In this document: piece after piece, positions 30,034 to 46,971 of the stretch
Numbering within the stretch: position 1 is the stretch's first letter
How the letters are laid out: the number at the start of each line of letters is the position of its first letter
Program-made: the position numbers and the translations under genes
Assembly: GCF_007741535.1 (NCBI RefSeq)
Contig: NZ_CP036525.1
Span: 1,550,001 to 1,614,000, forward strand
Direction of reading: 5' to 3'
DNA: 64,000 bases
DNA from: Rubripirellula lacrimiformis
GTDB taxonomy: Bacteria; Planctomycetota; Planctomycetia; Pirellulales; Pirellulaceae
The notes under the pieces: model-generated
Database searches by the model: none
What the model saw: only the letters and a program-made list of their open reading frames with translations
Told to the model about the DNA's origin: nothing

Positions 30034-31026
30034 TCAATCAACAACCCGCTGATGCATCGACGTCAGCCGCGACCTTTGCTGCACGATCGCGTTCAAAAAG
30101 ACGCGGCGGATCGCATCGTAGCCGCGGTCGTTTGGGTCTTCGATATTGCTATAGAACCAATAATGCGGGTCGTCGGCGTCGTAGTTCGATCGCCAGAATT
30201 GGCGACAGTGGGATCCGTGTCCCAGGAATGTCTGGTGCAGCCCAACGACGTGAACATGATCGTGTCGGTCGGCAACTTCGCGAATGACATCGTTGTACTT
30301 GGCATGGATGTCCAATCCGTCCGGCCATGGCGGCAAGAAAATGCTGGGGGCATCACCGACGCCATCGGTCGGGTCATAGATATCAGCCAGAAAGATCTCG
30401 CATCCGGCCGGAAACTTTTCGGTGATACCAACCATCATCGTTTCCAGCCGTGTGCGGAAACTTTTGATCCAAGACTCGGCCTGCTCGGTTGTCGCCCCGT
30501 ACATGGCACCTTCCGCAGGCGGCCGGCGACCATAGCTGTGGATCAGGTCATTGCCACCGGTGGTCATCACGACCAATCCGAAAGTGTCGCCGGAGTGTGT
30601 GGGCAATTGGTTGGCGATCACGTCGGCGTGGTCCAGAGATGTGGATCCCGAGACGGCAAAGTTTTCAGCACTCAGGTTAGGCAGGACTGACGACAACGAT
30701 TTGCCGACCATGTCCTGATATTCGTCCGGCGGATTGGTACGCAGCCGCTGAAAGAACGTGTGGCTGGTGTTCTTAGCGCCCAGGCCTCTTGTGATGCTGT
30801 CGCCAATCCCGACCAGTTTTATCGAACGCTCGGTCCACGGGGCATCGAATTCAGCGGCATCGACGCTGGGGCCGGCCGGGCCCGAGCCGATCGGGCGACG
30901 AAAGGTCAGTTCGATATAGACCGGCACGCCGACGATGAACATCACGCCGGCTAGCAGCATCAGTCGCCGACGCAGACTCGGTCGGGGTTTCTTGACTGTC
31001 GGTGCATCGGATTCTAAATCAGGCAT
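30034..31026 (-). CDS. SGNH/GDSL-family hydrolase, membrane anchored
   Basis: 330 residues from ATG 31026; a TTG at 31059 would add 11. An N-terminal helix MLLAGVMFIVGVPVYIEL (about 23-40) anchors it outside the cytoplasm. The SGNH blocks are GIGDSITRG (Ser at about 77), TTGGNDLIHSYG (about 155) and near the end DDPHYWFY with IEDPNDRGYDAI. The normal DxxH catalytic pair might be the DDPH, while the usual DxxHPND position reads NIEDPND. The catalytic assignment needs modelling. Esterase or acetylhydrolase activity is inferred from the family only. Confidence 0.8.
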   Translation of the reverse strand: MPDLESDAPTVKKPRPSLRRRLMLLAGVMFIVGVPVYIELTFRRPIGSGPAGPSVDAAEFDAPWTERSIKLVGIGDSITRGLGAKNTSHTFFQRLRTNPPDEYQDMVGKSLSSVLPNLSAENFAVSGSTSLDHADVIANQLPTHSGDTFGLVVMTTGGNDLIHSYGRRPPAEGAMYGATTEQAESWIKSFRTRLETMMVGITEKFPAGCEIFLADIYDPTDGVGDAPSIFLPPWPDGLDIHAKYNDVIREVADRHDHVHVVGLHQTFLGHGSHCRQFWRSNYDADDPHYWFYSNIEDPNDRGYDAIRRVFLNAIVQQRSRLTSMHQRVVD

Positions 31027-31143
31027 CACGCTGGCCAACAAACGGGGCAATCGAAACAAAGTGCCGTACGGATCGTCGACGTCCAGTTTAGCCCAGACGG
31101 CGGTGGGTTTCCGTCAGACCGACCGAGTACAAAGAGACCGCTG

Positions 31144-31216
31144 CGTTTTAGCGAAACCCTGTTCGATGCAATCGACGTCGCCAGATGCCGCGTGTTCGTT
31201 CACGCTCGCTAAAACG
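31144..31216. repeat. Inverted repeat between minus-strand genes
   Basis: CGTTTTAGCGA (31144-31154) and its exact complement (31206-31216). The loop is about 51 bases. The right arm overlaps the stop of the glycosyltransferase gene. Confidence 0.5.
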
Positions 31217-32936
31217 AAAGGGGAACAGTGATTCCGGACGCGTCGCCTAGGGCGCCGAAGGACCGGGGCGAGAATCGTGTGGAACGATACCGCATCAAAC
31301 GTCGGCGCACTTCGGCGTGCGATTCATGATTGGCGATGCTGCCGAAACCCGAATCGCTGTGCTGGGTTGCTGATTCGCGGTGGCAGCGGTACCGGACCAG
31401 AACTTCGTTGGAAACGATGATCGACGCACCGCCGTAGTGGGCGCGCAATTGAAAATCCGTATCGACGCCAGTTCGATTCCGTTTCCCTTCGCCAAAATCA
31501 CCGTAACCGCCCAGTCGACGAAACGCCTCGGTGCGGACCACCAGCGTTGGGTTCTCTAGAAAGTAACCGCTGGCATCGTGGCGAGGATATCGCGATGTGC
31601 GCAGGTAGCGTGTTCGGCCTTTCGAATCGGTGTTGGTCTTGTTCGATGCGCCGATGACGATCGTAGGGTCGCCAAACAGTTCGGTGGCGGATCCGACCAT
31701 GTCGGCTTGCGCCAAAGTCAGCAGTCGACAGCTTTTCGCAATTCGCTCGGGCAGACTGATGTCGTCGGCATCCTGAACGGCGATGAATTCGGCGTCGGAG
31801 TTTGCGGCGATGTTATTGAACGTCGCAAAGGGGCCGAGGTTACGAGAGTTTCGATAGAACCGGATGTTGGGATAGTCGCTGAGGCTGCGAAAGAAATCGT
31901 TCGTTGATCCTTGGCTATCGTCATCGACCAGATGGATGGTGATTTCGGCACCAGTTTGACGCAGCAGGCCAACCACCGATTCAGTGACATAGTCCAGCGA
32001 ATCACGAAACGGCAGCACGACGTCGCAGCGATGACGAGGCTGCAGCTGGGGAACCGCATTGCGATGGATGGTGGCAAGTTGGGGGCCATCGCTGTCGCGA
32101 AGTCCCAAACTGGTCCGGTCCGTACTCTTTTCGCCCGGATCCATCACTCGATCCTCGGCCGAAAATCGAGCGATCAGTTCCAGGTCGGCGCGAGGGTGGT
32201 AGCGGTCCAGCCCGCCGCTTTCCAACAGCGAGAATCTGCGGACGACCACGCAGCATTCGTCTTCGGTCGTTTCCGTCAGCAGTTCGCCGCCATGTTCCTG
32301 CATCCGCGAAATGAGTGCCGTCAAATCGCGTGGGTAGCGGCCGGTCAGGGTATCCGCAAAGGCGACGTAGTTGCACTTCAACGAAGGCAGCAGCTGGTCG
32401 ATCTGTTGCCAGGGCGCGGCGGAGGTTTCGGCCGGATGCTGTTTCACCCGCCAATGATGATCGAAGTCAGAGAGCCGATCGAGCGTGGCGCTCGGGCCCA
32501 CCAAGTGGATCCAAGACTGCACGTCGGATTGATCGAGGATGCCGTGGACCGTGGCTGCGATGTCAGCATTCGAATCTTGCTGGCTGCAGACTAGGATGAC
32601 GTCGCAGGTCATCGTCGTTGGGACAACGCGGTCGAAGCCTTCGTTTTCGATTGCCTTGGCGGCCCAGTGCTTTAGCAGTCCCGCCGGTTGGTTGGTTTCG
32701 GCGGTTGGGAAGTCGATTTCGCATGCGGATAGGACAAGCGAAGCGATGACCGGGTTGGACTCGGGGGCAGAAAGTGGTGACCGACGGACGCAGATCTCAC
32801 AGGCGGATTGATCCACCTGGCATGCAGCCGCCGATGCACCGGTCAACCGGCGAACGAAGTCGCAGGTCGCTGATTCCGATTGCCCGTGTCGACGAACGTC
32901 GATTCGAAACGGGCATCTTTCGACGGCATTGTTCAA
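31209..32936 (-). CDS. Glycosyltransferase family 2 with N-terminal Cys motif
   Basis: 575 residues from TTG 32936, which overlaps the stop of the small gene upstream (TTGA). The N-terminal 70 residues carry CPFR (Cys8), Cys25, VDQSACEIC (Cys46, Cys49) and NPVIAS. The same order occurs in the glycosyltransferase at 44818. The C-terminal half has a GT2/GT-A start CDVVLPFRDSLDYVTESVVG, HLVDDDSQGSTND, and QDADDISLPERI (the DxD-like metal site, about 375). Then come RRLGGYGDFG and a later GVDTDFQLRAHYGG. The middle contains a possible separate domain. Probably attaches sugars to surface material, inferred. Confidence 0.85.
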   Translation of the reverse strand: MNNAVERCPFRIDVRRHGQSESATCDFVRRLTGASAAACQVDQSACEICVRRSPLSAPESNPVIASLVLSACEIDFPTAETNQPAGLLKHWAAKAIENEGFDRVVPTTMTCDVILVCSQQDSNADIAATVHGILDQSDVQSWIHLVGPSATLDRLSDFDHHWRVKQHPAETSAAPWQQIDQLLPSLKCNYVAFADTLTGRYPRDLTALISRMQEHGGELLTETTEDECCVVVRRFSLLESGGLDRYHPRADLELIARFSAEDRVMDPGEKSTDRTSLGLRDSDGPQLATIHRNAVPQLQPRHRCDVVLPFRDSLDYVTESVVGLLRQTGAEITIHLVDDDSQGSTNDFFRSLSDYPNIRFYRNSRNLGPFATFNNIAANSDAEFIAVQDADDISLPERIAKSCRLLTLAQADMVGSATELFGDPTIVIGASNKTNTDSKGRTRYLRTSRYPRHDASGYFLENPTLVVRTEAFRRLGGYGDFGEGKRNRTGVDTDFQLRAHYGGASIIVSNEVLVRYRCHRESATQHSDSGFGSIANHESHAEVRRRLMRYRSTRFSPRSFGALGDASGITVPLSF

Positions 32937-33145
32937 GCCAGGGCCGGTTCAACACACGGGGTGGCGCGTAGTTGGCCTTTGAACTTTCCAGCGACGCTAG
33001 GACACTCTCCCGCGACCCCGCCATTTTCTGCACGCAAAAACTTCAGTTCCCAACCACTGCCATCGTATTCCCAGATCGCAGTCCCCATTGGGGCGGCGCG
33101 ATTTCCGCTACTGCCCAGAATGATCTCTCGGTTTGTATCCCACAT
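32933..33145 (-). CDS. Short conserved protein of unknown function
   Basis: 70 residues, ATG 33145. The stop TGA overlaps the TTG start of the glycosyltransferase, which favours a coupled gene. The sequence has a regular composition, with GTAIWEYDGSGWELKFLRAE followed by PSVAGKFKGQLRAT. It reads as a short beta-rich domain with several Trp, a pattern known to me from small planctomycete proteins. No clear ribosome binding site. Confidence 0.6.
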   Translation of the reverse strand: MWDTNREIILGSSGNRAAPMGTAIWEYDGSGWELKFLRAENGGVAGECPSVAGKFKGQLRATPCVEPALA

Positions 33146-33301
33146 CGGTCGGCCTCGTTGAATGAAATGAAAATCGTGTCATGGCCCCTGCTTGGGTGAT
33201 GGTACGCTGGCCGGATGGGCGGTGCAACGTTCATGACAGAGCTTCTGCGAATATCAGCCACGGTTTTTTGTCGTGGCGACCACACAACCGATCGGCCGTG
33301 T

Positions 33302-36300
33302 CTAAGGAATTGACCGGGCAACACGGAAACCGATCGAGTAGTAGCGAATCCCGGGGGCCGAGTCACCCTCGCGCAACAACCGCACCACGCGTTCCAAACT
33401 CGCGTCCCATTCAGGGCCGCGAAGTCCGAATCCTTTCTGGTCATTGGTCGGGCCGACGCACCATTCGCTGACATTGCCAACCATGTCGAATAGTCCGTTT
33501 CGATTTGGTTTTTGGCCGGCGACCACCTGGGCATGTTGTAGGTTCAGATCGTCGACTCGGGCATATTCATTGGCCAGTTCATAATCGTGCCCATAGTCGA
33601 AACGAGTCTTGGCGTCACCGAAATAGGCGGTCTCCCATTCGTCTGCGGTCGGCAAACGATAGCCTTTGCGCGAACGGTAGTCGTCGTACAGCAAGACGGT
33701 TTCTTGCTCCTCTTTGGTTGGCGGGTGGCATTGATCCTCTTCACCCATCCCTGCTTCGGTCGTTAGCCATCGGCAGTAATCCGCAGCGTCGAACCACCTT
33801 GCCTGGATCATCGGGCAATTGGGGTCCGGAGCCATCGTCGGGTTCACATGGTCCGGATGACGCCACAATTTGAACTGTTCCAGCGTGACTTCGGTCATCG
33901 AGATTTCGAACGGATGGTCCCCGTTATCGATGCGGATCATGGTCTGCCCCTTCGGATTGATCGACCAACGCAACGATTCATCTTTGGGCTGTTCGGCAAT
34001 GCGAAGTTCTTGTTCTTTGATCCAATCCCTTGCGGTCTGGCCATCGTCTAATCGCGTCAGCAACCAGCGCGATGTTGAATGTTGTTCTGGATCCGCGGCC
34101 GACAGGAAGGTTTCGCGTGCAAGTTTTCTGCAGCGGTTGATGAGGTCAGCATCCGGTAGGTCGATGTTTCCCTTGGGCAGCGATTCGCCTTGATGGTCGG
34201 CCGACCAAGCCGAAGTTCCCAGCATTTGCAGGAGCGCCGTCTGCACATGGACGTCGTCCTGTTGATCATACAATTTCAGAATCGCCGCTGGAGAAACACC
34301 CATTTTGACCGCCCGGTGAATGATACCGCTGCGTGTGTTGGCGTGATCGCTTTGGCGAAGCAGCGGCAAACAGGGTTCAATGATCCCGAGTCGGCATAGG
34401 TAGGCGGCCGCGTTGGATTGGCGGTTGGATGCCGCCTGCCAACTTCGTGGTGTCGAATCTGGATGGATCGGTGTGTCGATCACGGCCCGCATTCGGGGTT
34501 CCAGCAAAGTGGCTGAATAGCGATCAACCAGCGGCAGGAAAGATTCGACTTGGTTGGTGTTGGCATCCAAGAAAAGGTCGACCAACGCGTCGCAGTCATC
34601 GGCGACCAAATCCTGCAGCATGTTCAGAGATTCTTGTCGCGTTTGACTCGGTTTGTCCTGGCGATAGATTTTCGCTAACTCGGGGACCGCAACATTGCTG
34701 GCGCTGGCCAACGCCGAAACCACCGCGTTGTAGTCTCGTGGTTGCTCGATCGCATGACGAATCGACTGTTCAATATAGAAAGTCTGTATCGGCTGCCATC
34801 GCTCACGCGACTTAGGACCGATGGGCGGGTCCAAAGTCGCTAGCGCCATTGCCGAACGTAGTCGTTGCAAATCGGGTTGGCTTTCGTCGCCCAGGAATTG
34901 CCAAAGCTGTTCGTTGATCTCGGAAAGCTTGGGATTCTGTTGCAACTCACTTCTCAAGAACGACAATTGCTGAATGTCGATCGAACGAATATGGTCTTTC
35001 AGTTCGTCAAGTGTTTCTTGATCATCGGGATGATGCCGAAGAAGCGCAGCCCGGGCGTGCAGTCCCTCGTTCGTGTCGACCGGCGAATCCTCGGCGATTC
35101 TTTCCAACGCCGGCGTGCTGTAGCGCTGGTAGTCCTGCAGGCTGTTTAGGATCTCCGGTGCATTGGTCGTATCGGCGGTCGCCAATTGTTCGACCAAAGC
35201 ATTTGCCTTGGCGTTGCCATAGGCTTCAAAACCGACCAGCCCAGCGATCGCCGCTGCCAGACAAAACGCGGTCGATCCGATGGTGTGGCGTCGGGTCGAA
35301 ACGGCCATCATCCGCTGTTCATTCGCGGTTCGATGCGACTTCGAGGTCAGGAACAAGTACGACATCCATTCCCACCAATTGGGAAGGTTGCGTTTTTCGG
35401 GGCGAGAAATCCAAACGTCCGTTTGATTCGATAGCCGTTGGGCTGCGCGTCCCTGGATCGTTTGCTGCTGACGCCGTTCCAGCCAGCGCCGAACTGCTGG
35501 CACCAAAAAGTCATGCGTCAGTTGGTAGTAGCGTTCTTTCGATGATTGATCGTCGATCGAGTCGCCTAGCGGGTCGGTCGGTGTGATCAGTCGCAGATCG
35601 CCATCAAGGATCGAGATGACTTGGTCAAAGTTGCGCGACTCCGATGAGTGTCCGGTCACCGAACGTAGATCGGATTCGGAACGCATGGCTCCTTTGATGT
35701 TCGTCCCTGCCTCGGGCAAGAGGGCCATCAAAATGGACTCCGCCGCACCCAAATGGGCTCGGATCCCGGGGGCTGCTGATTCGCCAAGGGATTCTTCTAG
35801 GAATCGAATCCCGACGCCTTCGGTGCCTCCCATTTGGGTCAGCGTTTTGAGGTCCCAATCACGACTCTTCATGATTTCGGCAAAGGTGGCCAACTGAACG
35901 GGGACGATTTTTTCTTTCTCTGCCAGCCCGTCGATCGCTTTGTCCAAAAACGCTTTTTGGCTGGACGTCAGATCTTCCAGTCGAGCGGGCAATCGTGAGT
36001 AGCCACATCCGTATTCGGCCAAGACTCGCCGTGCATGCCGACGGTCAAACAAATCGACCATCGCTAGGTTGTGTCGTCGCACGAGGTCGATTTCCAACTG
36101 GTCGGCCAGTCGGCTAACGCCAATCCAGTAGTCATCGCGGACCAGCAAGATGCACTGCAGATTGTTTCCGTCGCACTGACGAAGCGCCAGCATCAGTTCG
36201 GCCCGTTCTTCGTCGCCCCGCGCGTGCAGCCATTGTTCAAACTGGTCCAAAATGATCAGTACTTTTTGGCGATCGGTGTGGGAGTCATCGCGGCGGAGCC

Positions 36301-37816
36301 ACGAAAGACTGGCGACTAGATCCAAGTCCGTCGGCATCTCGGCACAGCGAATTCGCAGCATGCGAAGCAGTTGTTGTTCGGTCCGGTCTCCCGAGCATTC
36401 GATCATCACGGTGGTGACTGATCGAACCAGGATCGGCAATAGGCCCGCCTGGACGAACGACGATTTTCCCGATCCTGATGTTCCGTAGATCACACCAACA
36501 CGGAAACTTTCGGCGGGATCCGTCGATTCGATTCGGCGACGCCAAAACTGGATGCTGTCGGGTACGCCATCGCGGCCGTAGGGGCCTGGCAACAGTTTGT
36601 GGAAAAATGCTGCGTCTTCGAATTCAAACGAACGAAGGCCCCGTGGAACGATGCCGACGAATGCGTCGAAGGTCGACGTGGATGATTCGCCCGGGCGAAT
36701 CTCTGCCCGATCAGGGGTCACGGACGAAAGAGAATCCGTGTTGGACTGGTGCTGGATGAAGTGTTCGAGATCGTTGGCGAAATCCTGCGCGATCAGATAG
36801 CGTTCGGTGGCCCGCTTGGACAACAAACGCAGACACATGCGTTCGAGTTCTTTGGGAATGTTTGGATTGCGTTGACGCAGCGGTTTCGGATCGGCATGGC
36901 AAATCAGGTCGATGACTTGTTGCGCTTCGCTGGCAACGAAGGGGCGTCTGCCGGTCAAGATTTCGTACATCACCACGCCCAGGCTGTACAGGTCGCTGCG
37001 GCCATCCACCAAGTGGCTTTCACCGCGCGCTTGCTCGGGACTCATGTACGAAATCGTGCCGACCCGCCCGACGTATCCTTCCCACCGATCTTCCCGCAGC
37101 GCCAAACCGAAATCGTTGACAAAGCACTGTTCATCCCGGTCGATCAATAGGTTTGCCGGTTTGATATCACGATGAACCACGCCGGCGCTGTGGATGCCGG
37201 CCAACGTTTCGGTAACCGATTTGATCAATGCGATCGATTCGGTGATCGACAGTGGTGATCGTTTGATCCGTTCGGAAAGCGTTTCCCCGTTGATGTACTT
37301 GGTGACGACGTACAGTTGTCCATCGGTGTTGCTGACGTCATAGATCGGCACCACGTTGGGATGGTCCAAACTGGCCAGGGTCCGGGCCTCGGCCATGAAT
37401 CGGATCACATCAATTTCACGTCGCGACCGGTGCGCGTGGATGACTTTGATGGCGACTTTGCGTTCCAGGCTATTGTCGATCGCCAGGTAGACTCGCGCGA
37501 ATCCACCAGCCCCCAGTTCTTCGATGATCGTGTATCGGTTGGCGGGGCCGAAGTTCTTCTCTAGCCCGTTGGTCTCGAAACTGGACGACCCATCATTGGC
37601 GACCCCATCGGGACCGATGGATCGTGTTTGGGAATGTTGACGCAGCAGATGGTCGCCATCCAGATCGCTATCGGGAGGCGCTTCGGTGTCGGCCGACGTC
37701 GCGTTCACTTGCGTTGGTTCTTCGGCATCCGAACCGACGCTCATTTTGGGGCGCTCGCTAAGTCCGGAGACAAAGGACGGGTCGGTGGGATCGGAAGCAT
37801 CATCGGGTGCAGGCAT
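33302..37816 (-). CDS. Ser/Thr protein kinase - STAND NTPase - FGE-sulfatase-like fusion
   Basis: 1504 residues. Residues about 95-345 form an active-looking Hanks-type kinase: GAGGFARVY, VAIKVI (Lys), HRDIKPANLL, NDFGLA, GTISYMSPEQARGE. Residues about 400-650 form a STAND/AAA-like NTPase with Walker A YGTSGSGKSSF (about 445) and Walker B VLIILDQFEQW (about 522). A hydrophobic helix FCLAAAIAGLVGFEAYG lies near 855 and could cross the membrane. Residues about 900-1280 look helical, perhaps HEAT/TPR-like. The last 200 residues match the formylglycine-generating enzyme/sulfatase-modifying fold (RLPTADEWETAYFG, VGNVSEWCVG, GFRVARSIP). Such kinases are common in bacterial conflict and signalling loci. 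The locus is divergent from the caspase/CHAT pair. Confidence 0.9.
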   Translation of the reverse strand: MPAPDDASDPTDPSFVSGLSERPKMSVGSDAEEPTQVNATSADTEAPPDSDLDGDHLLRQHSQTRSIGPDGVANDGSSSFETNGLEKNFGPANRYTIIEELGAGGFARVYLAIDNSLERKVAIKVIHAHRSRREIDVIRFMAEARTLASLDHPNVVPIYDVSNTDGQLYVVTKYINGETLSERIKRSPLSITESIALIKSVTETLAGIHSAGVVHRDIKPANLLIDRDEQCFVNDFGLALREDRWEGYVGRVGTISYMSPEQARGESHLVDGRSDLYSLGVVMYEILTGRRPFVASEAQQVIDLICHADPKPLRQRNPNIPKELERMCLRLLSKRATERYLIAQDFANDLEHFIQHQSNTDSLSSVTPDRAEIRPGESSTSTFDAFVGIVPRGLRSFEFEDAAFFHKLLPGPYGRDGVPDSIQFWRRRIESTDPAESFRVGVIYGTSGSGKSSFVQAGLLPILVRSVTTVMIECSGDRTEQQLLRMLRIRCAEMPTDLDLVASLSWLRRDDSHTDRQKVLIILDQFEQWLHARGDEERAELMLALRQCDGNNLQCILLVRDDYWIGVSRLADQLEIDLVRRHNLAMVDLFDRRHARRVLAEYGCGYSRLPARLEDLTSSQKAFLDKAIDGLAEKEKIVPVQLATFAEIMKSRDWDLKTLTQMGGTEGVGIRFLEESLGESAAPGIRAHLGAAESILMALLPEAGTNIKGAMRSESDLRSVTGHSSESRNFDQVISILDGDLRLITPTDPLGDSIDDQSSKERYYQLTHDFLVPAVRRWLERRQQQTIQGRAAQRLSNQTDVWISRPEKRNLPNWWEWMSYLFLTSKSHRTANEQRMMAVSTRRHTIGSTAFCLAAAIAGLVGFEAYGNAKANALVEQLATADTTNAPEILNSLQDYQRYSTPALERIAEDSPVDTNEGLHARAALLRHHPDDQETLDELKDHIRSIDIQQLSFLRSELQQNPKLSEINEQLWQFLGDESQPDLQRLRSAMALATLDPPIGPKSRERWQPIQTFYIEQSIRHAIEQPRDYNAVVSALASASNVAVPELAKIYRQDKPSQTRQESLNMLQDLVADDCDALVDLFLDANTNQVESFLPLVDRYSATLLEPRMRAVIDTPIHPDSTPRSWQAASNRQSNAAAYLCRLGIIEPCLPLLRQSDHANTRSGIIHRAVKMGVSPAAILKLYDQQDDVHVQTALLQMLGTSAWSADHQGESLPKGNIDLPDADLINRCRKLARETFLSAADPEQHSTSRWLLTRLDDGQTARDWIKEQELRIAEQPKDESLRWSINPKGQTMIRIDNGDHPFEISMTEVTLEQFKLWRHPDHVNPTMAPDPNCPMIQARWFDAADYCRWLTTEAGMGEEDQCHPPTKEEQETVLLYDDYRSRKGYRLPTADEWETAYFGDAKTRFDYGHDYELANEYARVDDLNLQHAQVVAGQKPNRNGLFDMVGNVSEWCVGPTNDQKGFGLRGPEWDASLERVVRLLREGDSAPGIRYYSIGFRVARSIP

Positions 37817-38235
37817 GATGCGGCTATTGTATCCGAGTTCAAAAGGCTAGATCGCGTGCGGGCATCCGATGCTCCGGCATTTGCTGTTCGTCGTTCGCGT
37901 ACGACATCCATTACTGTACAGAAGGCACTCTGCGGATTGGTGTCGTGCCCCCCGGCAAGGTAGAGTCTAGCTGCTGAGAGTTCTACCACTCAATGACCAG
38001 TGCAGCACACCACTGCAGCCACCCGACTTGCCGACCGTTCCATGGCAGCCCAACGTTCCGCGTCAGCCTAGGCCGTTGGATGGGGGGATGCCCAAAAGTG
38101 GGTGTCGTGCTGTGGATTCTATTGCAATCCTTCGGTCGTTGGGCAACCGGATCGTGGTTTTGGGTGGAATGGTTCAGGCACCGACGGACCACCCAATCCG
38201 AAGTGGTCAACATTCACCTAGCGGAATCGTAGCTC
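37817..38235. promoter_or_regulatory. Divergent regulatory region between kinase and caspase operon
   Basis: 419 bases. No gene supported; two short opposing open frames at about 37983-38232 have no ribosome binding site or family features. Control of both arms from one region would fit a co-regulated system. Confidence 0.4.
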
Positions 38236-41200
38236 ATGCCAAGTTTGTCTCCCCTGTTTGCGTTGATCATTGGGATCGATGACTGGCTTTGGCCGAAGAT
38301 GCCTGGGTTGCGAGGCTGTGTGAACGACGTCGAACTGATGCGCCGGGTGTTGCAGGATCGTTTTGGCGTTCCCGATGAAAACGTTCTGACGTTGACCAAT
38401 CAGGCGGCCACTCGCGACGCCATCACGAATGCCTTTCGAACACAGTTCATTGATCGTGCGAAGCAGTGGCGGCAATCGGGCGGCAAGGATCCTGAGCCGG
38501 CGTTTGTGTTTCACTATTCTGGTCATGGCAGCCGAGCACGTGATGCCTCCGGCACCCAACCCGATGGTTTGGACGAAACCATTGTTCCCTACGACAGTCG
38601 GGTCGGTGACGTCTATGACATCAAGGACTGGGAACTGGCTCAGTGGCTAGGTGAACTGACGTCCTATACCGAGAACGTCACGATCATTCTGGACTGCTGT
38701 CATTCGGGCAGCGGCACCCGCAGCATTGATTCGCTGGGAACACGCCGGTTGGGGCCCGTCGATTTGCGGAACCAGCCACAAATTCGCCCCCCCGGCCAGA
38801 CCGGTTTGCCGGTTGGCCCCGGTCATGATTGGAACGCCCATCGTTTGAAGGGCGCGAATTGGAACAGCGGGAATCAGATTGACTTGAATTCCACCGCAAC
38901 CCGTAGCGCCCACGATGACCAGGATTCGGTCTCGGGAAATTGCAAGTACGTGTTGTTGGCGGCCTGCCGAAACTTCGAATTCGCCGAAGAGTACACGATC
39001 AACGTTTCGCCGCCGGTCGACTGCGATGTCCCAGCATCGACCACCGAAACCGATTCGCCGACGGCGACCAAGAATGCAGGGAACGCCGAACCCGCAGCGG
39101 ATGCGAACTCGCTCGCCAAGGCTGTCAAAAAGCACGGGGCGTTCACCTGGTTCTTAGCCAAAGAATTGATGAGCCTTTCGGATGGTCAAACGACCACCTA
39201 TCGCGATTTGCAGCAGCGCGTGCAGTATGAAGTTCTCAATCGCTATCCAAGTCAATCGCCGCAATGCGAAGGGGATCGTGATCGAATCCTGTTCGGCGGC
39301 GTCAGGCCGCGACGTGATACGTCGTTGTTGATCAGCCGAGTGGATCAGGATCGCGTTTGGGTCGACGGGGGGGCGGTGCATGGATTGGTGGTCGGGCAAT
39401 CGATGGATGTGTATTCGCCCGATGCAAAGACATTCGCCAACAGCGTCCCCATCGGTCGTCTGCGCGTGATCAATGTGGGATCGGTTCACAGTGTCTGTAG
39501 GGTCGAAACCGGTGAAGCCGTCTTGCACGGCCGCGTCCCCATGCCCATTCCTAGCAGTTCGCCACGCCGGCATCAGGTTGCTGTCGCGGTCTCTGATTCG
39601 GCAGTCCGGGCGGCGTTGATCCGGCGACTGGGGGCAAACGATATTGATCCCTACATCGAGGTTGCACAGTCGGTCGACCAGCTGCCCAATTCCCATCACA
39701 CAGACGGCGCCGATTTCTGTATCGTCGAATCGGGATCGCAATTGCAGCTGCGAGGTGCCGACGGTCGATCGCTAGTGGAACCAAGTGACATCGCCGACGT
39801 ATCCAAGGTCGTCCAAAACCTGGCTGCGATCTGCCGATTCAACAACGCCCTGGGCCTATCGAATGCATCGCCCGATTCGGCGCTGGATGGCAAAATATCG
39901 GTGCAGTTCTTTCTCGCTGGCGAAGCCGACCCCGCCAGCGACGACAAACGGCGACGTGTTCGATCAGTGCGACCGGTGCCAACCACGGCCGAGGGACTGC
40001 CGATCGTGGAAATCGATACACCCATCGCGATCGAGGTGGTCAACCACAGTGATCAGCCGGTGTTCGTCGAAGCGATCAGTTTCGGACACGACTACGCCAT
40101 CATTCCGTTGACTGCCGAATTAACGGCACCCGGGAATCGCAAACGCGTCGGGCCGGGATCCGCGTTATGGTTTGGCCGCGATATGTCGGACCTCGAGATT
40201 GTGTTTATGTTGCCTCAGGATGCGGACCAGGCCAACTGCTTTGTCGAGGTTCGTGAATCCTTGAAGGTCATCGCCACGGTCGAGGAAACCGACTTTGACG
40301 TGCTGAAACAGGATGGGTTGGCAATCCCAACGAATACGGCGACACGCTCTAGCATGGCGCCCGGTTCGGCACTGGACCACCTATTGAATCAGGCGATGGC
40401 GGGTTCACGGGCGCTGGGAGCTCGCAGGAAACAAGACGCCACCAGCGACTGGACAGCCGTGGTCCAGCAGTATGTGGTCGCCAAGCCGGATTCGCAGTGC
40501 GCCCAGACATTGGCAGGCGGCAGCAGCGTTTGGATCGACGCCTACGACACGTCCGTTACCGCGCCCGAGGGATTCGATTGCCAGGTGCAGGTGGTGTCCA
40601 GCCACTCGGCGGCTCGTTCGGTCCACGATGATCCCGCGCAGCACAACGGCGCCGGCCAGGACGCAATGCCCAGCCAGCGACGGGATCGACCCAGCGGTCC
40701 GCTGTGGGAATCCGGTGCGCTGCGACCGTTCGCCTTTGCCGCCAAACGATGCGCAACCCCGGTCGGTGATGCGATTGAAATCACGGCGGATCCGGATGCG
40801 ATGGAATTGATCTCGGATGATCGACCGATTCAGATTTCCATCGCCGGATCCAGTGGTGTCGACCAGCCTGTTGCCGGCCAAGCGACGCAAGGCCGTGGAC
40901 GATGGATGGCGATCGCGTGGGACGCGGGCTGTGCTTACCCGGTCGGACAGGGAGATTCGCTGGCCGACATTTCGGTGTCTTGGTTGCCGCCCGCCGCGAA
41001 TGGGGAACCGGCTGGGGATCACGAACCGGTGCAAGCGGTCCGGCGTGGTCTGCTAAGAACGATCCGCTTGTATCTGTATCAGGTTTGCGACTGGGAATCG
41101 CCCGAGCTGGGGCTGCATGCGGTTCGCTTGGTCCCCGCCGACGACGTTGGAACAGATCGGCTGCTGCGTGGTGAACGCACGGTCGATTCACCGCATGGGC

Positions 41201-42066
41201 AACTTCGGTACCGGACTTGGACGGCCGCTGACAATCCGAACGCTGGCCCCAGCGATGGTCGACGGGTCTTGTTGGTCGTCCATGGTTTCTCGTCATCCAG
41301 TCAGGCGGCGCTGGACGATCTTCAGGAAATCGTTGGCGACGAAATGTCGGACTACGAAGTTGTGTTGGTTTTCGATTTCGAAACATTTCATACGCCGATT
41401 GCCGAGTCGGCCAAGCAGTTGGCCAAGGCCTTGGTGGATGCCGGGATCGCTGCCGATGACGGAATGAAGTTGGACGTGTTGGCGACGGGGATGGGAGCGA
41501 TCTTGGCCCGGTCGTTGATCGAGCAGTTTGGTGGCCACGCGTGGGTGGATCGTTGTTTTCTAGCGGGAGTCCCCAATGATGGGACGGCGCTGATGAAGGC
41601 AAAGTCAGCATTGCCTTGGATCGGCACCGCGATCTTGAACTTGGGCGGGCCCCATCCAGCCGCGTTGTTCTTCAGCGCGGCACTGAAAAAATTGGAAAGT
41701 GACGCAGCCGCGCTGGCTGACTTGGTTCCAGGTTCCGGATTTTTGCGAGGTCTCGAAGCCGCCGCCGGTGCGGTCGATCCAAAGTTGCCCTACGAAGTGA
41801 TCGCCGGACTGTATCAAGTGGCAGATCCCAATCAGGCATCCGCCGACGACTGGTCCAGTCGATGGATCGCGGCCGGGCTTGTCGGGGTCGGTCTCGGCGC
41901 TCGGGTCTTGTTTGCCGATGGCCACGACTTGATAGTCAACTCGTCCAGTGTCACGTCAGTGCCGGTGAAAGATCTTCGGATCCATACCGTGGATTGTCAC
42001 CATTTTGCTTACTTTCGATCGGATGCTGTTGGACAAGTCCTTTCCCAATGGATGGATAGAACATGA
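38236..42066 (+). CDS. Caspase-family (C14) protein with C-terminal alpha/beta hydrolase domain
   Basis: 1276 residues. The N-terminal caspase-like fold shows FALIIGIDDW, GCVNDVELM, HYSGHGSRA with His97, and ILDCCHSGSG with Cys155, so the catalytic dyad is present. Residues about 360-700 contain a beta-rich module (PIAIEVVNHSDQPVFVEAIS, ALWFGRDMSDLEI) similar to the DUF4384-type region found with metacaspases. A proline- and alanine-rich middle follows. From about 1010 an alpha/beta hydrolase starts (RVLLVVHGFSSSS). Its nucleophile elbow reads LATGMGAILARSLIEQ, with Gly1085 where Ser is expected, so it should be non-hydrolytic. Coupled to the next gene (ATGA, 42063-42066). Likely a protease effector in a conflict or cell-death pathway, inferred. 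Confidence 0.88.
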   Translation: MPSLSPLFALIIGIDDWLWPKMPGLRGCVNDVELMRRVLQDRFGVPDENVLTLTNQAATRDAITNAFRTQFIDRAKQWRQSGGKDPEPAFVFHYSGHGSRARDASGTQPDGLDETIVPYDSRVGDVYDIKDWELAQWLGELTSYTENVTIILDCCHSGSGTRSIDSLGTRRLGPVDLRNQPQIRPPGQTGLPVGPGHDWNAHRLKGANWNSGNQIDLNSTATRSAHDDQDSVSGNCKYVLLAACRNFEFAEEYTINVSPPVDCDVPASTTETDSPTATKNAGNAEPAADANSLAKAVKKHGAFTWFLAKELMSLSDGQTTTYRDLQQRVQYEVLNRYPSQSPQCEGDRDRILFGGVRPRRDTSLLISRVDQDRVWVDGGAVHGLVVGQSMDVYSPDAKTFANSVPIGRLRVINVGSVHSVCRVETGEAVLHGRVPMPIPSSSPRRHQVAVAVSDSAVRAALIRRLGANDIDPYIEVAQSVDQLPNSHHTDGADFCIVESGSQLQLRGADGRSLVEPSDIADVSKVVQNLAAICRFNNALGLSNASPDSALDGKISVQFFLAGEADPASDDKRRRVRSVRPVPTTAEGLPIVEIDTPIAIEVVNHSDQPVFVEAISFGHDYAIIPLTAELTAPGNRKRVGPGSALWFGRDMSDLEIVFMLPQDADQANCFVEVRESLKVIATVEETDFDVLKQDGLAIPTNTATRSSMAPGSALDHLLNQAMAGSRALGARRKQDATSDWTAVVQQYVVAKPDSQCAQTLAGGSSVWIDAYDTSVTAPEGFDCQVQVVSSHSAARSVHDDPAQHNGAGQDAMPSQRRDRPSGPLWESGALRPFAFAAKRCATPVGDAIEITADPDAMELISDDRPIQISIAGSSGVDQPVAGQATQGRGRWMAIAWDAGCAYPVGQGDSLADISVSWLPPAANGEPAGDHEPVQAVRRGLLRTIRLYLYQVCDWESPELGLHAVRLVPADDVGTDRLLRGERTVDSPHGQLRYRTWTAADNPNAGPSDGRRVLLVVHGFSSSSQAALDDLQEIVGDEMSDYEVVLVFDFETFHTPIAESAKQLAKALVDAGIAADDGMKLDVLATGMGAILARSLIEQFGGHAWVDRCFLAGVPNDGTALMKAKSALPWIGTAILNLGGPHPAALFFSAALKKLESDAAALADLVPGSGFLRGLEAAAGAVDPKLPYEVIAGLYQVADPNQASADDWSSRWIAAGLVGVGLGARVLFADGHDLIVNSSSVTSVPVKDLRIHTVDCHHFAYFRSDAVGQVLSQWMDRT

Positions 42067-44864
42067 ACCGATCGACCCGACCTATCGTGTTGTTGGCGTT
42101 TGCCGATCCCCGCCGCGATCTTGATAACCTCAAGAAGGAATCCAGCGGTATACGTGACTTGTTTTGGCGGTTCGATGATGTTGTGGAGGTGATCATTTTG
42201 GACCACCCCACGCTGATGCAGATCACGCAAACTTTTCAACGATATCGAAATCGCATCGTCGCGTTCCACTACGGGGGGCACGCCAACGGAATGGAACTGC
42301 TGTTGGAAGACGTTCAGGGCGATACCCAAGTGGCTGGTGCATTGGGGTTCGCCCAGTTGTTGGGGCATCAGTCGGGTTTGAAGCTTGTCTTTTTGAATGG
42401 GTGTTCCACCGAGGGGCAGGCCGAAGGATTGCGGGCGGCCGATGTACCCTGCGTGATCGCGACCAGTCGTGCGATCAACGACGAAGTGGCGACTCAGTTT
42501 GCGATCGTGTTTTATGGCGCACTGGCCAGCGGCGCCGACATCCAAGCCGCCTTTGGCGAAGCGTCGGCGACCACGCAAAGTGCACATGGGGATCAAACAC
42601 GCGGGTTGTACGCTCGCAAATTTCTGGATCAACAGCCGGCGGGCATCGTATTGCCCTTGCCTTGGAATCTGCACTCGCACCAAGACCGAATCAACGATTG
42701 GACTTTTGACCTGGAATCGCGACGACGCCGGCGCGGCGCCAAAGGTGACACCGCTGCCGAAACGGCGATGGTTCGCCATCTGCAAACCCTGTTGGATCGT
42801 GTCAAACAGTTCTGGGTCACGGGTTTGTTGGACAGTTCGCTGCAGCGATCCGAGCGGATCGAGTTAGCGATGGCGGACTGCAGCGATGTGGTCGCCGATT
42901 CGTGGAATTCGGTCGATGTTGGTGCGTTGCCGACAACCGATTTTGTCGAATCGGGAGATCGTATCATGGACGTTTTTCAGCGGACTCGCCAATCGTTGAT
43001 GATCCTGGGGCATCCCGGCGCCGGCAAAACGACCGCCTTGTTGGAATTGACCGCAGGCCTAGTCGATTGGTGTGAAACGGAATCCGATCAGCCTGTGCCA
43101 GTGGTGTTGCACCTTTCCACTTGGAACTCCAAATTCGGTTCGCTGGTCGACTGGATCGAAGATGAAATGAGCCGCAAGTATCACGTCGCCAGCAAGCACG
43201 GTCGGCGATTCGTTGATACCGAACAACTGATCCTGATGCTGGATGGTCTGGACGAGACTGCCGAAAATCTGCGTGACGGATGCGTCGAGGCGATCAACGA
43301 CTTTTTGGACCACCAGGGTGTGCCCGGAATCGTCGTGTGCTGTCGTGTTGACGAATTCAATCAACTGGTTCAACCGGTTCGATTGGCCGGGGCGATTTGT
43401 CTGCAACCGCTCAGTGAAGAACAGATTCATTTGGCGTTGTCGGATGGTGGGCCAGCCAGCGTGACACTTTCGAAACAACTGGAGCAACATCCCGACCTTC
43501 TGAACCTGGCCCGTTCACCGCTGATCTTTGGCATCATGCGGGAGGCGTTCAATGAAGTGGATGCGCAGGAATCGATGCACTTTGAATCCCAACATCAATG
43601 TCAGGCGATGGTCTTCGATCGATACATCGATCGAATGATTCGGACTCGATCCAAGGAAACGGACAGCTACACGCCCCAGGAATGTTTGGCGGGACTGCAT
43701 CGTTTGGCCAAAATCGTTCAATCCAAGCGAGAGTCGATCTTCATGATCGAAAATCTGCAGCCGACGGACCTGACATCGACCTGGTCTCGCTTTGCGTACA
43801 GCGTGTCGGTGTCGCTGATTTTTGGAACCCTATCGGGCTTGGTCACCACGATCTTTTTCTGGACGCTGGCCGGCATCAGCGACGATTCCTTCGACGCATT
43901 GGAGCACGGGCTGGGATGGTGTGTGACGCCGATGTTGATGGTCTGGTTTGTGGGGGTGGGCCTGTTAGAGCCTTGCTTTGAAGTCCCCAAGGCGGAATTG
44001 GCATCGCGGATGGCGGTCGCAGCGCATGGAGTGAAAAAGGCGTTGCTGTTTTTGGCTTTCTGGCTGTTGATGACGCTGGCTGCCTATTCGATCACGCAGC
44101 ATGTCCCCATGTTTCTGTTGCTGGTGTTCACCGGCGTATTGGCATCGGCGATGGTCGGTGCGTATGGGCGATCCCAAGAAGTGTTTGCCGCGGTTCGTCC
44201 GGTCGAGGCCGTCGGGATGTCCATGGGAAACTCGGCGCGTGGCATGTTCGTGGGCATGCTAGTCGGGGTGGGAGTTTGGTTGATTCATGGATTTTGGAAC
44301 AAAACCAATTTGCACTTTTGGTACCAACCGGAGTGCGCGCCGTCGGTCGGACGCTGGATTTACCTGATCGTGCTAACGACATTGGGGATCGAAGGCGGCG
44401 GGATCACCGGCGGTATTGTGCCGGCAACGATCGAAGGCAAAACACGATTGAATCAGGGGATGCGTTTGTCGCTGATCAGCGCCCTGAAAGTGGGCTCCGC
44501 GGCCGCGTTGACTCTTGGCGTCACGGTGTACCTGATCTCGATGTTGATTCGCGAGCGGACGACCGCCGATGCCGTATCGCTCGGGTTGTCGATTGGGCTG
44601 CTGGCGTTTTTCTGTGTGGGCAGTTGGTTCGGTGGTTTCGAATGGTTGAAACATGTTGTGCTGCGAACCGTGATGCGGTTCAGCGGTCAATTGCCACCTG
44701 GGTTGCCGCAATTTCTGCAACAGGCGCGACGCTATCGATTGATGCACCGAGTCGGCGGCGGGTTCATGTTCCTGCACCGTACCTTGCAGGAGCATTTCGC
44801 CGCTAGCACGCCCGTGTTCATTGACCGGTCGCGTCCTTCGGACCCGACGCAAGTTCGTCCATGA
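42063..44864 (+). CDS. CHAT protease - NACHT NTPase membrane protein
   Basis: 933 residues. Residues 1-200 are caspase-like CHAT: IVAFHYGGHANGMELL (His73) and LVFLNGCSTEGQAEGL (Cys114), both catalytic residues in place. The NACHT ATPase occupies about 310-460, with Walker A GHPGAGKTT (316-324), Walker B LILMLDGLDE (389-398), then VCCRVDEFNQL. About eight hydrophobic helices (about 580-870) follow, e.g. LFLAFWLLMTLAAYSI and GMFVGMLVGVGVWLIH. After them comes HRTLQEHFAAST, a motif seen at the end of many NACHT modules. An ATP-driven oligomerising switch anchored in the membrane is inferred. It overlaps the opposite glycosyltransferase by 47 bases. Confidence 0.9.
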   Translation: MNRSTRPIVLLAFADPRRDLDNLKKESSGIRDLFWRFDDVVEVIILDHPTLMQITQTFQRYRNRIVAFHYGGHANGMELLLEDVQGDTQVAGALGFAQLLGHQSGLKLVFLNGCSTEGQAEGLRAADVPCVIATSRAINDEVATQFAIVFYGALASGADIQAAFGEASATTQSAHGDQTRGLYARKFLDQQPAGIVLPLPWNLHSHQDRINDWTFDLESRRRRRGAKGDTAAETAMVRHLQTLLDRVKQFWVTGLLDSSLQRSERIELAMADCSDVVADSWNSVDVGALPTTDFVESGDRIMDVFQRTRQSLMILGHPGAGKTTALLELTAGLVDWCETESDQPVPVVLHLSTWNSKFGSLVDWIEDEMSRKYHVASKHGRRFVDTEQLILMLDGLDETAENLRDGCVEAINDFLDHQGVPGIVVCCRVDEFNQLVQPVRLAGAICLQPLSEEQIHLALSDGGPASVTLSKQLEQHPDLLNLARSPLIFGIMREAFNEVDAQESMHFESQHQCQAMVFDRYIDRMIRTRSKETDSYTPQECLAGLHRLAKIVQSKRESIFMIENLQPTDLTSTWSRFAYSVSVSLIFGTLSGLVTTIFFWTLAGISDDSFDALEHGLGWCVTPMLMVWFVGVGLLEPCFEVPKAELASRMAVAAHGVKKALLFLAFWLLMTLAAYSITQHVPMFLLLVFTGVLASAMVGAYGRSQEVFAAVRPVEAVGMSMGNSARGMFVGMLVGVGVWLIHGFWNKTNLHFWYQPECAPSVGRWIYLIVLTTLGIEGGGITGGIVPATIEGKTRLNQGMRLSLISALKVGSAAALTLGVTVYLISMLIRERTTADAVSLGLSIGLLAFFCVGSWFGGFEWLKHVVLRTVMRFSGQLPPGLPQFLQQARRYRLMHRVGGGFMFLHRTLQEHFAASTPVFIDRSRPSDPTQVRP

Positions 44865-45987
44865 TGAACCGGTCGGCCCGACGCAGTCCAACCGCTCGCG
44901 AATGGTTCCACACGCTGCTGACCTGTCCGATGTGTTGAACCAGACTGGGCGACGGATGCCAGATCGGTATATCGTTTTGGATGGCCCAGTACCCGATACG
45001 TGTATCGATACCGGCGTTCCCATCGACAACATTCAGTTCGCCCCGATCGGCCGCGTTTAGTAGTTGCCGTGCGACCACCGTTGGGAAGATCATTGCCAGC
45101 GCGCCGTATTGCCAAAGGCCGGGATGGGGCCGCCAATGGTTCGTGGATTGCATATCTTCGGTGGATGTGTACAGCGACACGATGCCGGCGCTGTCCTGGG
45201 GCCACAGCACCATTTCCACGTATTCGCGGATGCTGGAAACGGCGGGAAACAGCACATCGTCCTGGACGATCATCACCGCGTCGGCGTCGGCATCGGCGTC
45301 GGCATCGGGGGCATCGCTTAGCATCGTGCGGAGTGTTTCGCACCAGGCTGGCCAGGCGCCGATCGGGCGGGGGCGTTGGATTCGGACTTGGGATTGTTCG
45401 TCCATTGTAAGTTCGACCTCGCCGTCGACGAACAGCATCGGGGCCTGCCAACCGCTGGCGGTGATGCTTTGGATGCACCGCGTCAGTGTCGGTTGGCGTC
45501 GCGGTGCCGTGGTCATTCCGACGGTCCACCGGATTCCGCGTGTTGGATCGGCGGGAGGCTTGGTCTGGATGGGAATTGGCAGCGCGGCCGCCAATTCGTC
45601 GACCGAAACGTGAACGGGTGAGTGTTCGATTTGGGCGTCATCCACACAGTCGTCTTCGTCGGGATAGACGATGGGCAACTGGTCGATCGCTTGGCGGCAC
45701 AGCCGGCGAGCCTGGTCTGCGATCGGCCCATCGGGCGACGACTGCAGCAACGTTTCGCCGATCGAGTGGATGATCGACGCGATCACGGGATTCCAGTCCT
45801 GGGGGCTGGGCACAAACGACTGGCAACATGCGTGGCAGGTTTCGCGATCGACGGTGGCCGATTCCCCGCTGGCGAAGTCGGCTACGGTCGCGATCAACCC
45901 GCAGTGGGCTGTTTCGGAACTTCGATCGTTCGGATCAACGGATTCAATTCGACTGCGATGCGGACAGTCGTCGGCGTGGCGTGGCAT
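44818..45987 (-). CDS. Glycosyltransferase-like protein with N-terminal Cys motif
   Basis: 389 residues from ATG 45987, two bases after the sulfotransferase stop; GTG 45999 would overlap that gene. The N-terminus repeats the scheme of the gene at 31209: CPHR (Cys8), Cys29, VDRETCHAC (Cys51, Cys54) and NPVIAS. The C-terminal half has WTVGMTTAPRRQPTLTRCIQ, VMIVQDDVLFPAV (the DxD-type site) and NAGIDTRIGYWAIQNDIPIW, with HPSPSLVQHIGQVSS. A tandem hexamer at about 45271-45305 encodes a DADADADADA stretch. A surface sugar-transfer role is likely. Cotranscribed with the sulfotransferase. Confidence 0.75.
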   Translation of the reverse strand: MPRHADDCPHRSRIESVDPNDRSSETAHCGLIATVADFASGESATVDRETCHACCQSFVPSPQDWNPVIASIIHSIGETLLQSSPDGPIADQARRLCRQAIDQLPIVYPDEDDCVDDAQIEHSPVHVSVDELAAALPIPIQTKPPADPTRGIRWTVGMTTAPRRQPTLTRCIQSITASGWQAPMLFVDGEVELTMDEQSQVRIQRPRPIGAWPAWCETLRTMLSDAPDADADADADAVMIVQDDVLFPAVSSIREYVEMVLWPQDSAGIVSLYTSTEDMQSTNHWRPHPGLWQYGALAMIFPTVVARQLLNAADRGELNVVDGNAGIDTRIGYWAIQNDIPIWHPSPSLVQHIGQVSSVWNHSRAVGLRRADRFIMDELASGPKDATGQ

Positions 45988-45989
45988 GG

Positions 45990-46736
45990 CTATTCCCACT
46001 GGTCAATCGATTGGCCCATGAATTCAAACAGTGCTTCGTTGTGAGGGCGATATCGCTGGCGCAGGATCTCCGCCGTGGGCGAATCCAGTGGTGGGACCGT
46101 GTAGGGCCGCATGTGCGATACGATCGTCGGCAACCGCTGTGGTTCCAAGCCCAGGAACTGCAACATCGTATCGAAATGCTGCTGTGGATCCGCATTCCAC
46201 TGCTCCATCACCATCAGATGGATTTGGGATCGCGGGAAGTGTCGCAGCAGAGAATCGATCTGTTGAAGATACATTCCTCGGTTCAAAATCCCGTACCAAC
46301 TGGCGCGGGTGGTTTCGAATTCGGCCTGGATGTTGTCTGCGAACGATGCGCCGGGCAGCAGCCAGTCCCAGTCGCGGGATTCGTCAAGTTCCTGCGTGTA
46401 ATGGTTGAACTGGCTGAAGGCGCGGGCAACAGGGTCTCGAAGCGTCACGATGATCCGTGCATCGGGGATCAACGCAGCCATCCGGGAATGTGCCAGCGGT
46501 GAACAGATCATATTGGGGGTGGCGTCGATCCCTTTTCGATCCGGATCGGTGAAATGGCTCTGGTACCAATCGATGCCCCGCGACCAGTGGTCCATGAAAA
46601 AGTCGATTTCTTTGACTTCTTTGCCAGTGTCGGGGCTGATCGCCGCTTGCACATCCGGGTGGGCGGTCAGGCAGGCGTGCAGCGTCGAGGTTCCACATTT
46701 CTGGGCGCCGGCGATCAATAGACTGGGCATCGGCAT
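45990..46736 (-). CDS. PAPS-dependent sulfotransferase
   Basis: 248 residues from ATG 46736; ATG 46730 and ATG 46826 (Pro/Thr-rich extension) are alternatives. It transfers sulfate from PAPS to a sugar or other acceptor. The 5'-phosphosulfate loop is IAGAQKCGTSTLHACL (about residues 6-21). The 3'-phosphate site is IVTLRDPVARAFSQFNHYT (about 100-118). Next to glycosyltransferases, it may decorate surface polysaccharide, consistent with the many sulfated polymers of marine planctomycetes. Confidence 0.9.
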   Translation of the reverse strand: MPMPSLLIAGAQKCGTSTLHACLTAHPDVQAAISPDTGKEVKEIDFFMDHWSRGIDWYQSHFTDPDRKGIDATPNMICSPLAHSRMAALIPDARIIVTLRDPVARAFSQFNHYTQELDESRDWDWLLPGASFADNIQAEFETTRASWYGILNRGMYLQQIDSLLRHFPRSQIHLMVMEQWNADPQQHFDTMLQFLGLEPQRLPTIVSHMRPYTVPPLDSPTAEILRQRYRPHNEALFEFMGQSIDQWE

Positions 46737-46971
46737 GGCGAGTGGAGGTGTCAGGGGATTCGTCCGACTGGACGCAGGTCGGTCGGCAGCGGGGATGGGA
46801 GTGCTGGCCGGGTCGGGTGGCAGCATCTTTCTGGCCGGGTGGCCGCCGTATCATAGCCGCCGCGAATCGCGTCTTGGTCGCCGGGAATGGTGGTCGGCGA
46901 GAGTCGGGAAAAATGGTAGAGTCGGTGCTTCGAACTGGATTTCTTCCGACCCCCTTTGGCCAACTTCCCTG

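Follow-up and report, generated by a model that had tools for sequence, protein, structure and literature searches.

A kinase-nSTAND1-FGE protein beside a caspase-hydrolase and CHAT-NACHT pair: a candidate membrane-centred protease switch in a glycosyltransferase cluster

We describe three genes of a planctomycete, all within 11.6 kb, whose products (here called K, C and H) bring together a Ser/Thr kinase, nSTAND1 and NACHT NTPases, an FGE/C-type-lectin-fold domain, a caspase, an alpha/beta-hydrolase-like domain and a CHAT protease. We tentatively favour reading the locus as a membrane-centred, NLR-like protease switch that is set in a glycosyltransferase cluster and would serve regulated death or defence. 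The constituent parts are of known kinds and, judged on sequence, their grouping, which some relatives also have, appears to be a variation on bacterial switches already known from immunity or cell death. Coordinates are positions in the window, the whole 64,000-nt stretch of DNA that was analysed, which lies in a single-contig genome of 8.54 Mb; G and L numbers denote genomes and loci, respectively.

K (33302..37816, minus strand, 1504 aa; from its ORF, Pfam and hydropathy) runs from a Ser/Thr kinase through an nSTAND1 NTPase, a predicted single membrane helix and a middle region without a family to a C-terminal FGE/C-type-lectin-fold domain. C (38236..42066, plus strand, 1276 aa; ORF, Pfam and alignment) is a C14 caspase followed by a middle region without a family and an alpha/beta-hydrolase (DUF7379), and H (42063..44864, plus strand, 933 aa; ORF, Pfam and hydropathy) consists of a CHAT protease, a NACHT NTPase and a membrane region of eight hydropathy peaks. 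The initial annotation had described the kinase, STAND and FGE domains on one 1504-residue chain, a 419-base space between divergently oriented K and C, and an ATGA overlap joining C and H, and the ORF coordinates and Pfam matches bear out this layout, with the four overlapping bases at 42063-42066. It had overlooked the hydrolase domain with its lost Ser, the membrane helix of K, and the glycosyltransferase and sulfotransferase surroundings.

Second matches to C and H are absent from their own genome at E<=0.001 (candidates scored 4/5 and 5/5), and K is the only one of six nSTAND1 matches in the 8.54-Mb genome that scores above the cut-off. The nearest named relatives of H are in Planctomycetaceae and Pirellulaceae assemblies. 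A recent foreign insertion of C-H has left no compositional sign, the GC content being 0.563 for K, 0.592 for C, 0.563 for H and 0.582 for the window. The region 30000-46900 contains two short direct repeat families and no inverted repeat pairs that we could find, a promoter scan of 37600-38400 returned none, and Pfam gave no further defence families among the 15 other window ORFs scanned.

Domains of the three proteins

The kinase domain of K (residues 95-344; 36785..37534, minus strand; Pfam Pkinase, E 1.2e-49) has its catalytic motifs, with HRDIKPANL and NDFGLA, and the nSTAND1 domain (residues 392-805; 35402..36643, minus strand; Pfam, E 7.1e-21, 75.7 bits against a cut-off of 27.1) has a STAND P-loop at 445. 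A membrane helix is predicted at residues 845-863 (35228..35284, minus strand) from hydropathy alone. For comparison we used 34 K genes, namely that of the window and 33 others that are mainly top matches to it, with flanks of unequal length and some on short contigs. A hydropathy peak just after the STAND domain and before the FGE domain is seen in all 33 that have sequence there (L119 ends before the helix), and in 26 of these 33, window K included, the helix is preceded by more positive charge than follows it. Because of this peak and this charge bias, the kinase and STAND domains are probably inside the cell and the lectin-fold FGE end outside, and K with its membrane helix looks like a receptor. 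Window K has one further hydropathy peak, which falls within the STAND domain.

The C-terminal domain of K (residues 1314-1501; 33314..33877, minus strand; Pfam FGE-sulfatase, E 1.9e-20) has the T. denticola variable protein 1 (2y3c) as its best solved relative and is also near chain 5aoh; its similarity to FGE enzymes is weaker, at 5e-05 or worse, which fits a binding domain. Formylglycine-generating enzymes have their catalytic Cys pair in the final 50 residues, and Cys is absent from the last 50 residues of K. The Pfam score of 74.1 bits and a sulfotransferase gene close to K would speak for a genuine formylglycine-generating enzyme fusion that acts on sulfatases and has no connection with switching, but the missing Cys and the identity of the best solved relatives make this very improbable.

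PADLOC was applied to K, C and H alone. K stayed below the cut-offs for the MADS6/PD-T4-6 defence kinases (163.5 bits against 460 for MAD6), and the best 25 of 36 PADLOC matches have their best stretches in residues 89-389, the kinase end of K. The idea of K as a sensor diversified by a DGR is unsupported: the sole RVT_1 match in its own genome (L169, G000:C1:1942452-1943144) is a group II intron-like reverse transcriptase by sequence, and lacks a matching repeat.

The caspase domain of C (38257..39270, plus strand; Pfam Peptidase_C14 at residues 8-345, E 3.2e-17) carries the His97/Cys155 dyad ascribed to it by the initial annotation, and the dyad is kept in all 15 rows that cover the region, in an alignment of 16 rows of which one is a fragment. 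The final 270 residues are an alpha/beta-hydrolase-like domain (41269..42063, plus strand; DUF7379 at residues 1012-1129, E 1.3e-13), identified by Pfam, alignment and solved relatives; DUF7379 was matched in 9/9 members scanned and Abhydrolase_1 in five of the nine, and lipases are among the matching solved structures. In window C, the nucleophile Ser of GxSxG, the mark of a catalytic alpha/beta-hydrolase, is replaced by Gly1085. The middle region matched nothing solved at E<=1 and, in the window copy, no Pfam family, and an AlphaFold model of residues 356-1276 built from a 3-row alignment (mean pLDDT 32.5) was too poor for a fold search. Against the EACC1-associated caspase model NF047832, C scored 35.1 bits, below the cut-off of 140. 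The C gene of G117 has one in-frame stop (L079, ~17555-17598) between the caspase part and the remainder, and is a decayed copy, an error or a split protein.

H was likewise correctly described as a CHAT-NACHT membrane protein with His73/Cys114 and full Walker motifs. Its CHAT domain (42063..42731, plus strand; by alignment and profile) is above the Pfam cut-off at residues 79-213 (E 5.5e-07), and His73 and Cys114 are kept in all ten rows; conservation of the catalytic pairs in C and H, on which the initial annotation had staked its reading, thus holds in 15/15 and 10/10 rows, respectively. The only PDB match of the CHAT profile at E<=0.1 is 8tl0, at E 8.7e-19. The NACHT core (42996..43280, plus strand) scores 23.3 bits in Pfam, below the cut-off of 26.7, and its Walker motifs, A (GHPGAGKTT at 316) and B (LILMLDGLDE at 389), are invariant in four rows. 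Eight hydropathy peaks follow the NACHT domain and define the membrane region (residues 581-856; 43803..44630, plus strand). H scored 24.6 bits against the antiphage NACHT EruA of NCBIfam, for which the cut-off is 1000, and an AlphaFold model from a 4-row alignment (mean pLDDT 40.8) was too poor for a fold search.

Two further loci (L113:724-4020 and L114:8165-11440) encode an H-like NACHT and membrane region with a Ser/Thr kinase instead of CHAT, and the membrane NACHT module therefore exchanges its N-terminal effector. A NACHT-membrane protein like the C-terminal part of H, in two ORFs, is encoded on a plasmid of Calothrix brevissima NIES-22 (L099:9986-12095); BLAST found no caspase like that of C in 22 kb at this locus.

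Gene neighbourhoods and phylogeny

In a first search of 149 family genomes, K was matched in all 149, many by the kinase alone, C in 47 and H in 19, with many of the matches confined to a single domain. At E<=1e-40, C was matched in 16 of 241 family genomes, with G230 and G232 partial, and in 14 of 392 phylum genomes; in the latter it is full length in its own genome, G598 and G243, and the remaining matches are confined to the first 250-450 positions of the model. Of the 241 family genomes, 23 matched the H alignment at E<=1e-8, and the full CHAT-NACHT-TM type is found in four: its own genome, G117, G051 (as two contig pieces) and G133 (where it ends at the contig edge). Among the 392 phylum genomes, the H type at E<=1e-20 is limited to two, its own and G598, and in G598 the match is over CHAT alone.

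The neighbourhood of C was followed in 18 C genes (window, L076, L079, L081, L083-L092, L121, L129, L143 and L145), a set that leaves out the partial matches of G230 and G232 and the caspase-only phylum matches, and in which L091 lacks a hydrolase match, L121 is shortened internally and L145 ends with its contig. In 13 of the 18 (window, L079, L081, L083, L084-L090, L121 and L129), C has a CHAT gene (profile E<=1e-30) no more than 12 kb away, and chance neighbourhood is thus unlikely; the profile was built partly from the same loci, and plain BLAST with the window CHAT also found them. For L129 the CHAT gene is in L127, 11.5 kb off, or 9.1 kb if an overlapping second ORF is counted. L143 has a weak CHAT match (3e-8), and no CHAT was found in the flanks covered of L076, L091, L092 and L145.

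What accompanies CHAT in these partners varies, from NACHT with membrane helices, as in H, to nSTAND1 with WD40 or HEAT repeats and nSTAND1 without clear repeats. The partners scanned in L084-L089 all have an nSTAND1 match; WD40 repeats are clear in L086, L087 (two genes) and L088, HEAT repeats occur in L086, and the others are without clear repeats. For L086 and L088, CHAT is absent among the 25 Pfam matches listed and the call comes from BLAST and the profile. On these matches, the pattern is that the caspase-hydrolase stays constant and its NLR-type CHAT partner is exchanged. L085 (G091) has three protease/NLR-type genes consecutively, an nSTAND1-WD40 gene with a weak caspase match (L085:4057-8835) lying between C and a CHAT-nSTAND1 gene.

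The initial annotation treated K, C and H as a three-gene unit, and this stands in part. The trio does recur, since K, C and CHAT are together in the window, G117, G051 and G598; however, the recurrent unit is C with a CHAT-STAND gene, and K is found in four of the 18 C loci, a C gene being counted as not K-linked where K is unseen in the available flank, which for several K-less loci is a short contig. Chance neighbourhood of K and C is unlikely in view of the 4/18 and the few copies in the genome, but the K-C rows are few. G117 (L079) has K, H and C within about 11 kb, in an orientation unlike that of the window. In G051 (L119, L082 and L081), the N-terminus of K is on contig C52, the N-terminus of H and C are on contig C5, and the C-terminus of K faces the C-terminus of H on contig C107, from which we infer the three-contig order.

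G598, which belongs to another family (L127/L129), has K and C in the divergent arrangement of the window, with GT2 as two ORFs between them and with GT_393 and a CHAT-nSTAND1 gene on the far side of K, the whole spanning about 17 kb. Against uniformity, its CHAT gene is of the nSTAND1 type and is 11.5 kb from C, with K and glycosyltransferases between. The CHAT-nSTAND1 (L127:9674-13889) and GT2 (L129:7007-8963) genes of G598 are two ORFs each, suggesting decay or assembly errors. Across the 34 K genes, C or CHAT is near K in four and neither was seen near the other 30, and because of these 30 K clearly works without C or CHAT.

G138 encodes the closest relatives of both window K and window C, at places far from each other. 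On the K tree, starred branches force three label changes among the C-linked rows, and 74 of 500 shuffles were as low. On the C tree, window C joins G138 (97/95), the two then join G598 (100/100), and G117, G051 and G133 make up a separate clade (100/100). Four changes are required for the K-linked label, with 500/500 shuffles equal or better, and a long-branch warning applies to G598 and G243. Neither tree unites the K-C linked rows in a single clade. Therefore, linkage of the trio arose more than once, or it is old and was often lost, and the scattered label fits repeated joining and an old, often-lost linkage equally.

The nucleophile position could be read in 15 C proteins. It is Gly in those of the window, G598, G117, G051 and G133, and Ser in those of G138, G058, G091 (two), G024, G104, G045, G027, G120 and G243. 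All four K-linked C proteins have Gly and all ten in which K was not seen, several of them on short contigs, have Ser; G133, with Gly, is at a contig edge that conceals its K status. Loss of the nucleophile in C appears to track K linkage, a correlation that is suggestive and not proof, because the tree amounts to about three losses, or to two losses and one regain.

K is more commonly found with glycosyltransferases (9/34) than with C or CHAT (4/34), although three of the loci in this first count also contributed to the glycosyltransferase profiles. A GT2-family glycosyltransferase (31209..32936, minus strand; Pfam) has a strong relative near K in six of the 34 loci (window, L095, L129, L149, L151 and L153). 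All six are among the nine (with L094, L150 and L154) in which K is near a relative of GT_393 (44818..45999, minus strand), which is glycosyltransferase-like by context and by an N-terminus common with GT2, and has no Pfam match of its own. The sulfotransferase (45990..46826, minus strand; Pfam) has a relative that also adjoins K in G111 (L094). In the K tree, the glycosyltransferase-linked rows cluster somewhat (six changes; 19/500 shuffles as low). Six of eight chosen genomes have one strong GT_393 match, near K in 5/6, a count that is not independent because four genomes were chosen after the linkage had been seen. In G138, GT_393 sits with GT2, distant from K.

H and GT_393 converge with coding ends that overlap by 47 bases (44818-44864), so that C-H fits closely into the glycosyltransferase cluster. 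The N-termini of GT2 and GT_393 have in common a Cys-containing stretch of ~55 residues (34.5% identity, E 5e-4), which may represent a small domain for metal binding or an adaptor.

A possible mechanism and its alternatives

We suggest that the lectin-fold end of K would lie outside and monitor the envelope, either for glycan of the cell itself or for an invader; a glycan ligand is suggested by the lectin fold and by the adjacent genes. The STAND domain of K would then switch and its kinase would signal inside, H would oligomerise, and the CHAT protease of H would cleave and activate the caspase of C, which would go on to cut host proteins and bring about cell death or arrest. In K-linked C proteins, the hydrolase without a nucleophile would probably be a docking or regulatory module. 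The best supported of these steps would be that from CHAT to caspase, because the CHAT domain of H is related to 8tl0 and SAVED-CHAT takes part in a proteolytic cascade. That the parts form one switch serving conflict or cell death we infer from family precedent.

It is possible that two independent systems share the locus. K would then be a receptor kinase controlling surface-polysaccharide synthesis, forming a glycan-regulation unit with GT2, GT_393 and the sulfotransferase, and C-H, a CHAT-caspase pair for defence, would be separate and would have landed between these genes. The greater frequency of glycosyltransferase relatives (9/34) than of C or CHAT (4/34) beside K is in keeping with such an arrangement, as are the position of C-H, flanked by K and GT_393 and on the strand opposite to theirs, and the occurrence of K, C and the glycosyltransferase pair at three distant places in G138. 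However, the K-with-C rows make no single clade in either tree, G117 and G051 have K, H and C with no GT2 or GT_393 relatives seen in the flanks covered, and the loss of Ser in C tracks K linkage.

We consider it unlikely that the locus carries out regulated proteolysis outside immunity, in envelope stress, attachment or life-cycle control, with CHAT and the caspase signalling rather than killing. A probable receptor kinase in a glycosyltransferase context would suit such a role, planctomycete rosettes are among the aggregate forms named in passages of PMC7159879, and the abstract of PMC13236601 describes a CARD-NLR-like peptidase system that serves gene-transfer-agent release. In contrast, the locus-variable sensor ends of the CHAT partners resemble the invader-sensing families of the cited surveys, and the occurrence of C (16/241, two partial) and of the full H type (4/241) is patchy, unlike that of a core pathway. 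More speculative still, and improbable when taken as a whole, is an inflammasome-like surveillance of the surface, in which a transmembrane receptor kinase, having its NLR switch inside and its lectin-fold sensor outside, would read the glycan of the neighbouring glycosyltransferases and sulfotransferase and would license the membrane CHAT-NACHT protease to activate the caspase, and the assembly would have taken place more than once, with the hydrolase tail non-catalytic each time K joined.

Survey passages treat the lectin-fold FGS sensors of bacterial STAND proteins as intracellular. If the switch that we favour is real, an outward lectin-fold kinase-STAND protein that occurs more than once beside a CHAT-caspase pair would link envelope sensing to a protease cascade, in parallel with the way in which receptors trigger death in animal cells. 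The association of K with a missing hydrolase serine leads to a testable prediction on which part of the caspase protein acts. Among the openly available journal papers listed by literature searches, the titles and opening lines of abstracts showed neither the K-C-H combination nor, within the same scope, a dead hydrolase in K-linked forms, an outward FGE topology or the glycosyltransferase context, which is weak evidence that they are absent from the literature.

Comparison with known systems

In the relevant passages of Kaur et al. 2021 (PMC8195603), nSTAND1 is among the NTPases fused to a C-terminal FGS, the N-terminal effectors of these STAND-FGS conflict systems include S/T/Y kinases and caspases, and FGS sensing is intracellular and often linked to DGRs. 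K has this architecture, with nSTAND1, a C-terminal FGS/C-type-lectin-fold domain and an N-terminal kinase effector, and differs from the systems of those passages in the predicted membrane helix before the FGS and in a genome in which no DGR was found. A K-C-H locus with glycosyltransferases does not appear in the STAND-FGS section of PMC8195603. Passages of Dore et al. 2024 (PMC10907252) propose nSTAND1-FGE targets of DGRs, with proteases nearby, as antigen sensors; unlike the genomes of such DGR-diversified CLec/FGE sensors, that of K has no DGR that we found. Caspase homologues fused to FGE and to NACHT are among those listed in the part of PMC3501461 that concerns them.

The abstract of PMC13236601 presents LypABC of Caulobacter as a CARD-NLR-like, tripartite system of two peptidase proteins and an ATPase protein that is needed for lysis; unlike the K-C-H locus, a kinase-FGE receptor and CHAT go unmentioned in that abstract. 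According to passages of Kaur et al. 2020 (PMC7159879), a caspase and an alpha/beta-hydrolase operate together in VMAP ternary systems, whereas C has both on a single chain, next to a CHAT-STAND gene. Pfam scans of 18 window ORFs gave no match to MoxR or vWA, which are components of VMAP/iSTAND ternary systems, or to Cas. In work by Steens in 2024, the SAVED-CHAT of a type III CRISPR system reportedly activates a caspase homologue. The CHAT domain of H is related to SAVED-CHAT (8tl0, E 8.7e-19) and has the catalytic His and Cys, with NACHT and membrane helices where SAVED-CHAT has SAVED, to which H has no match at E<=0.01. As far as the passages seen in each source go, 8tl0 is a SAVED-CHAT structure (PMC11417357) and SAVED-CHAT provides immunity through a cascade of proteolytic activity (PMC11229360). 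Compared with that cascade, the present locus has a hydrolase domain on its caspase protein and K as an additional component.
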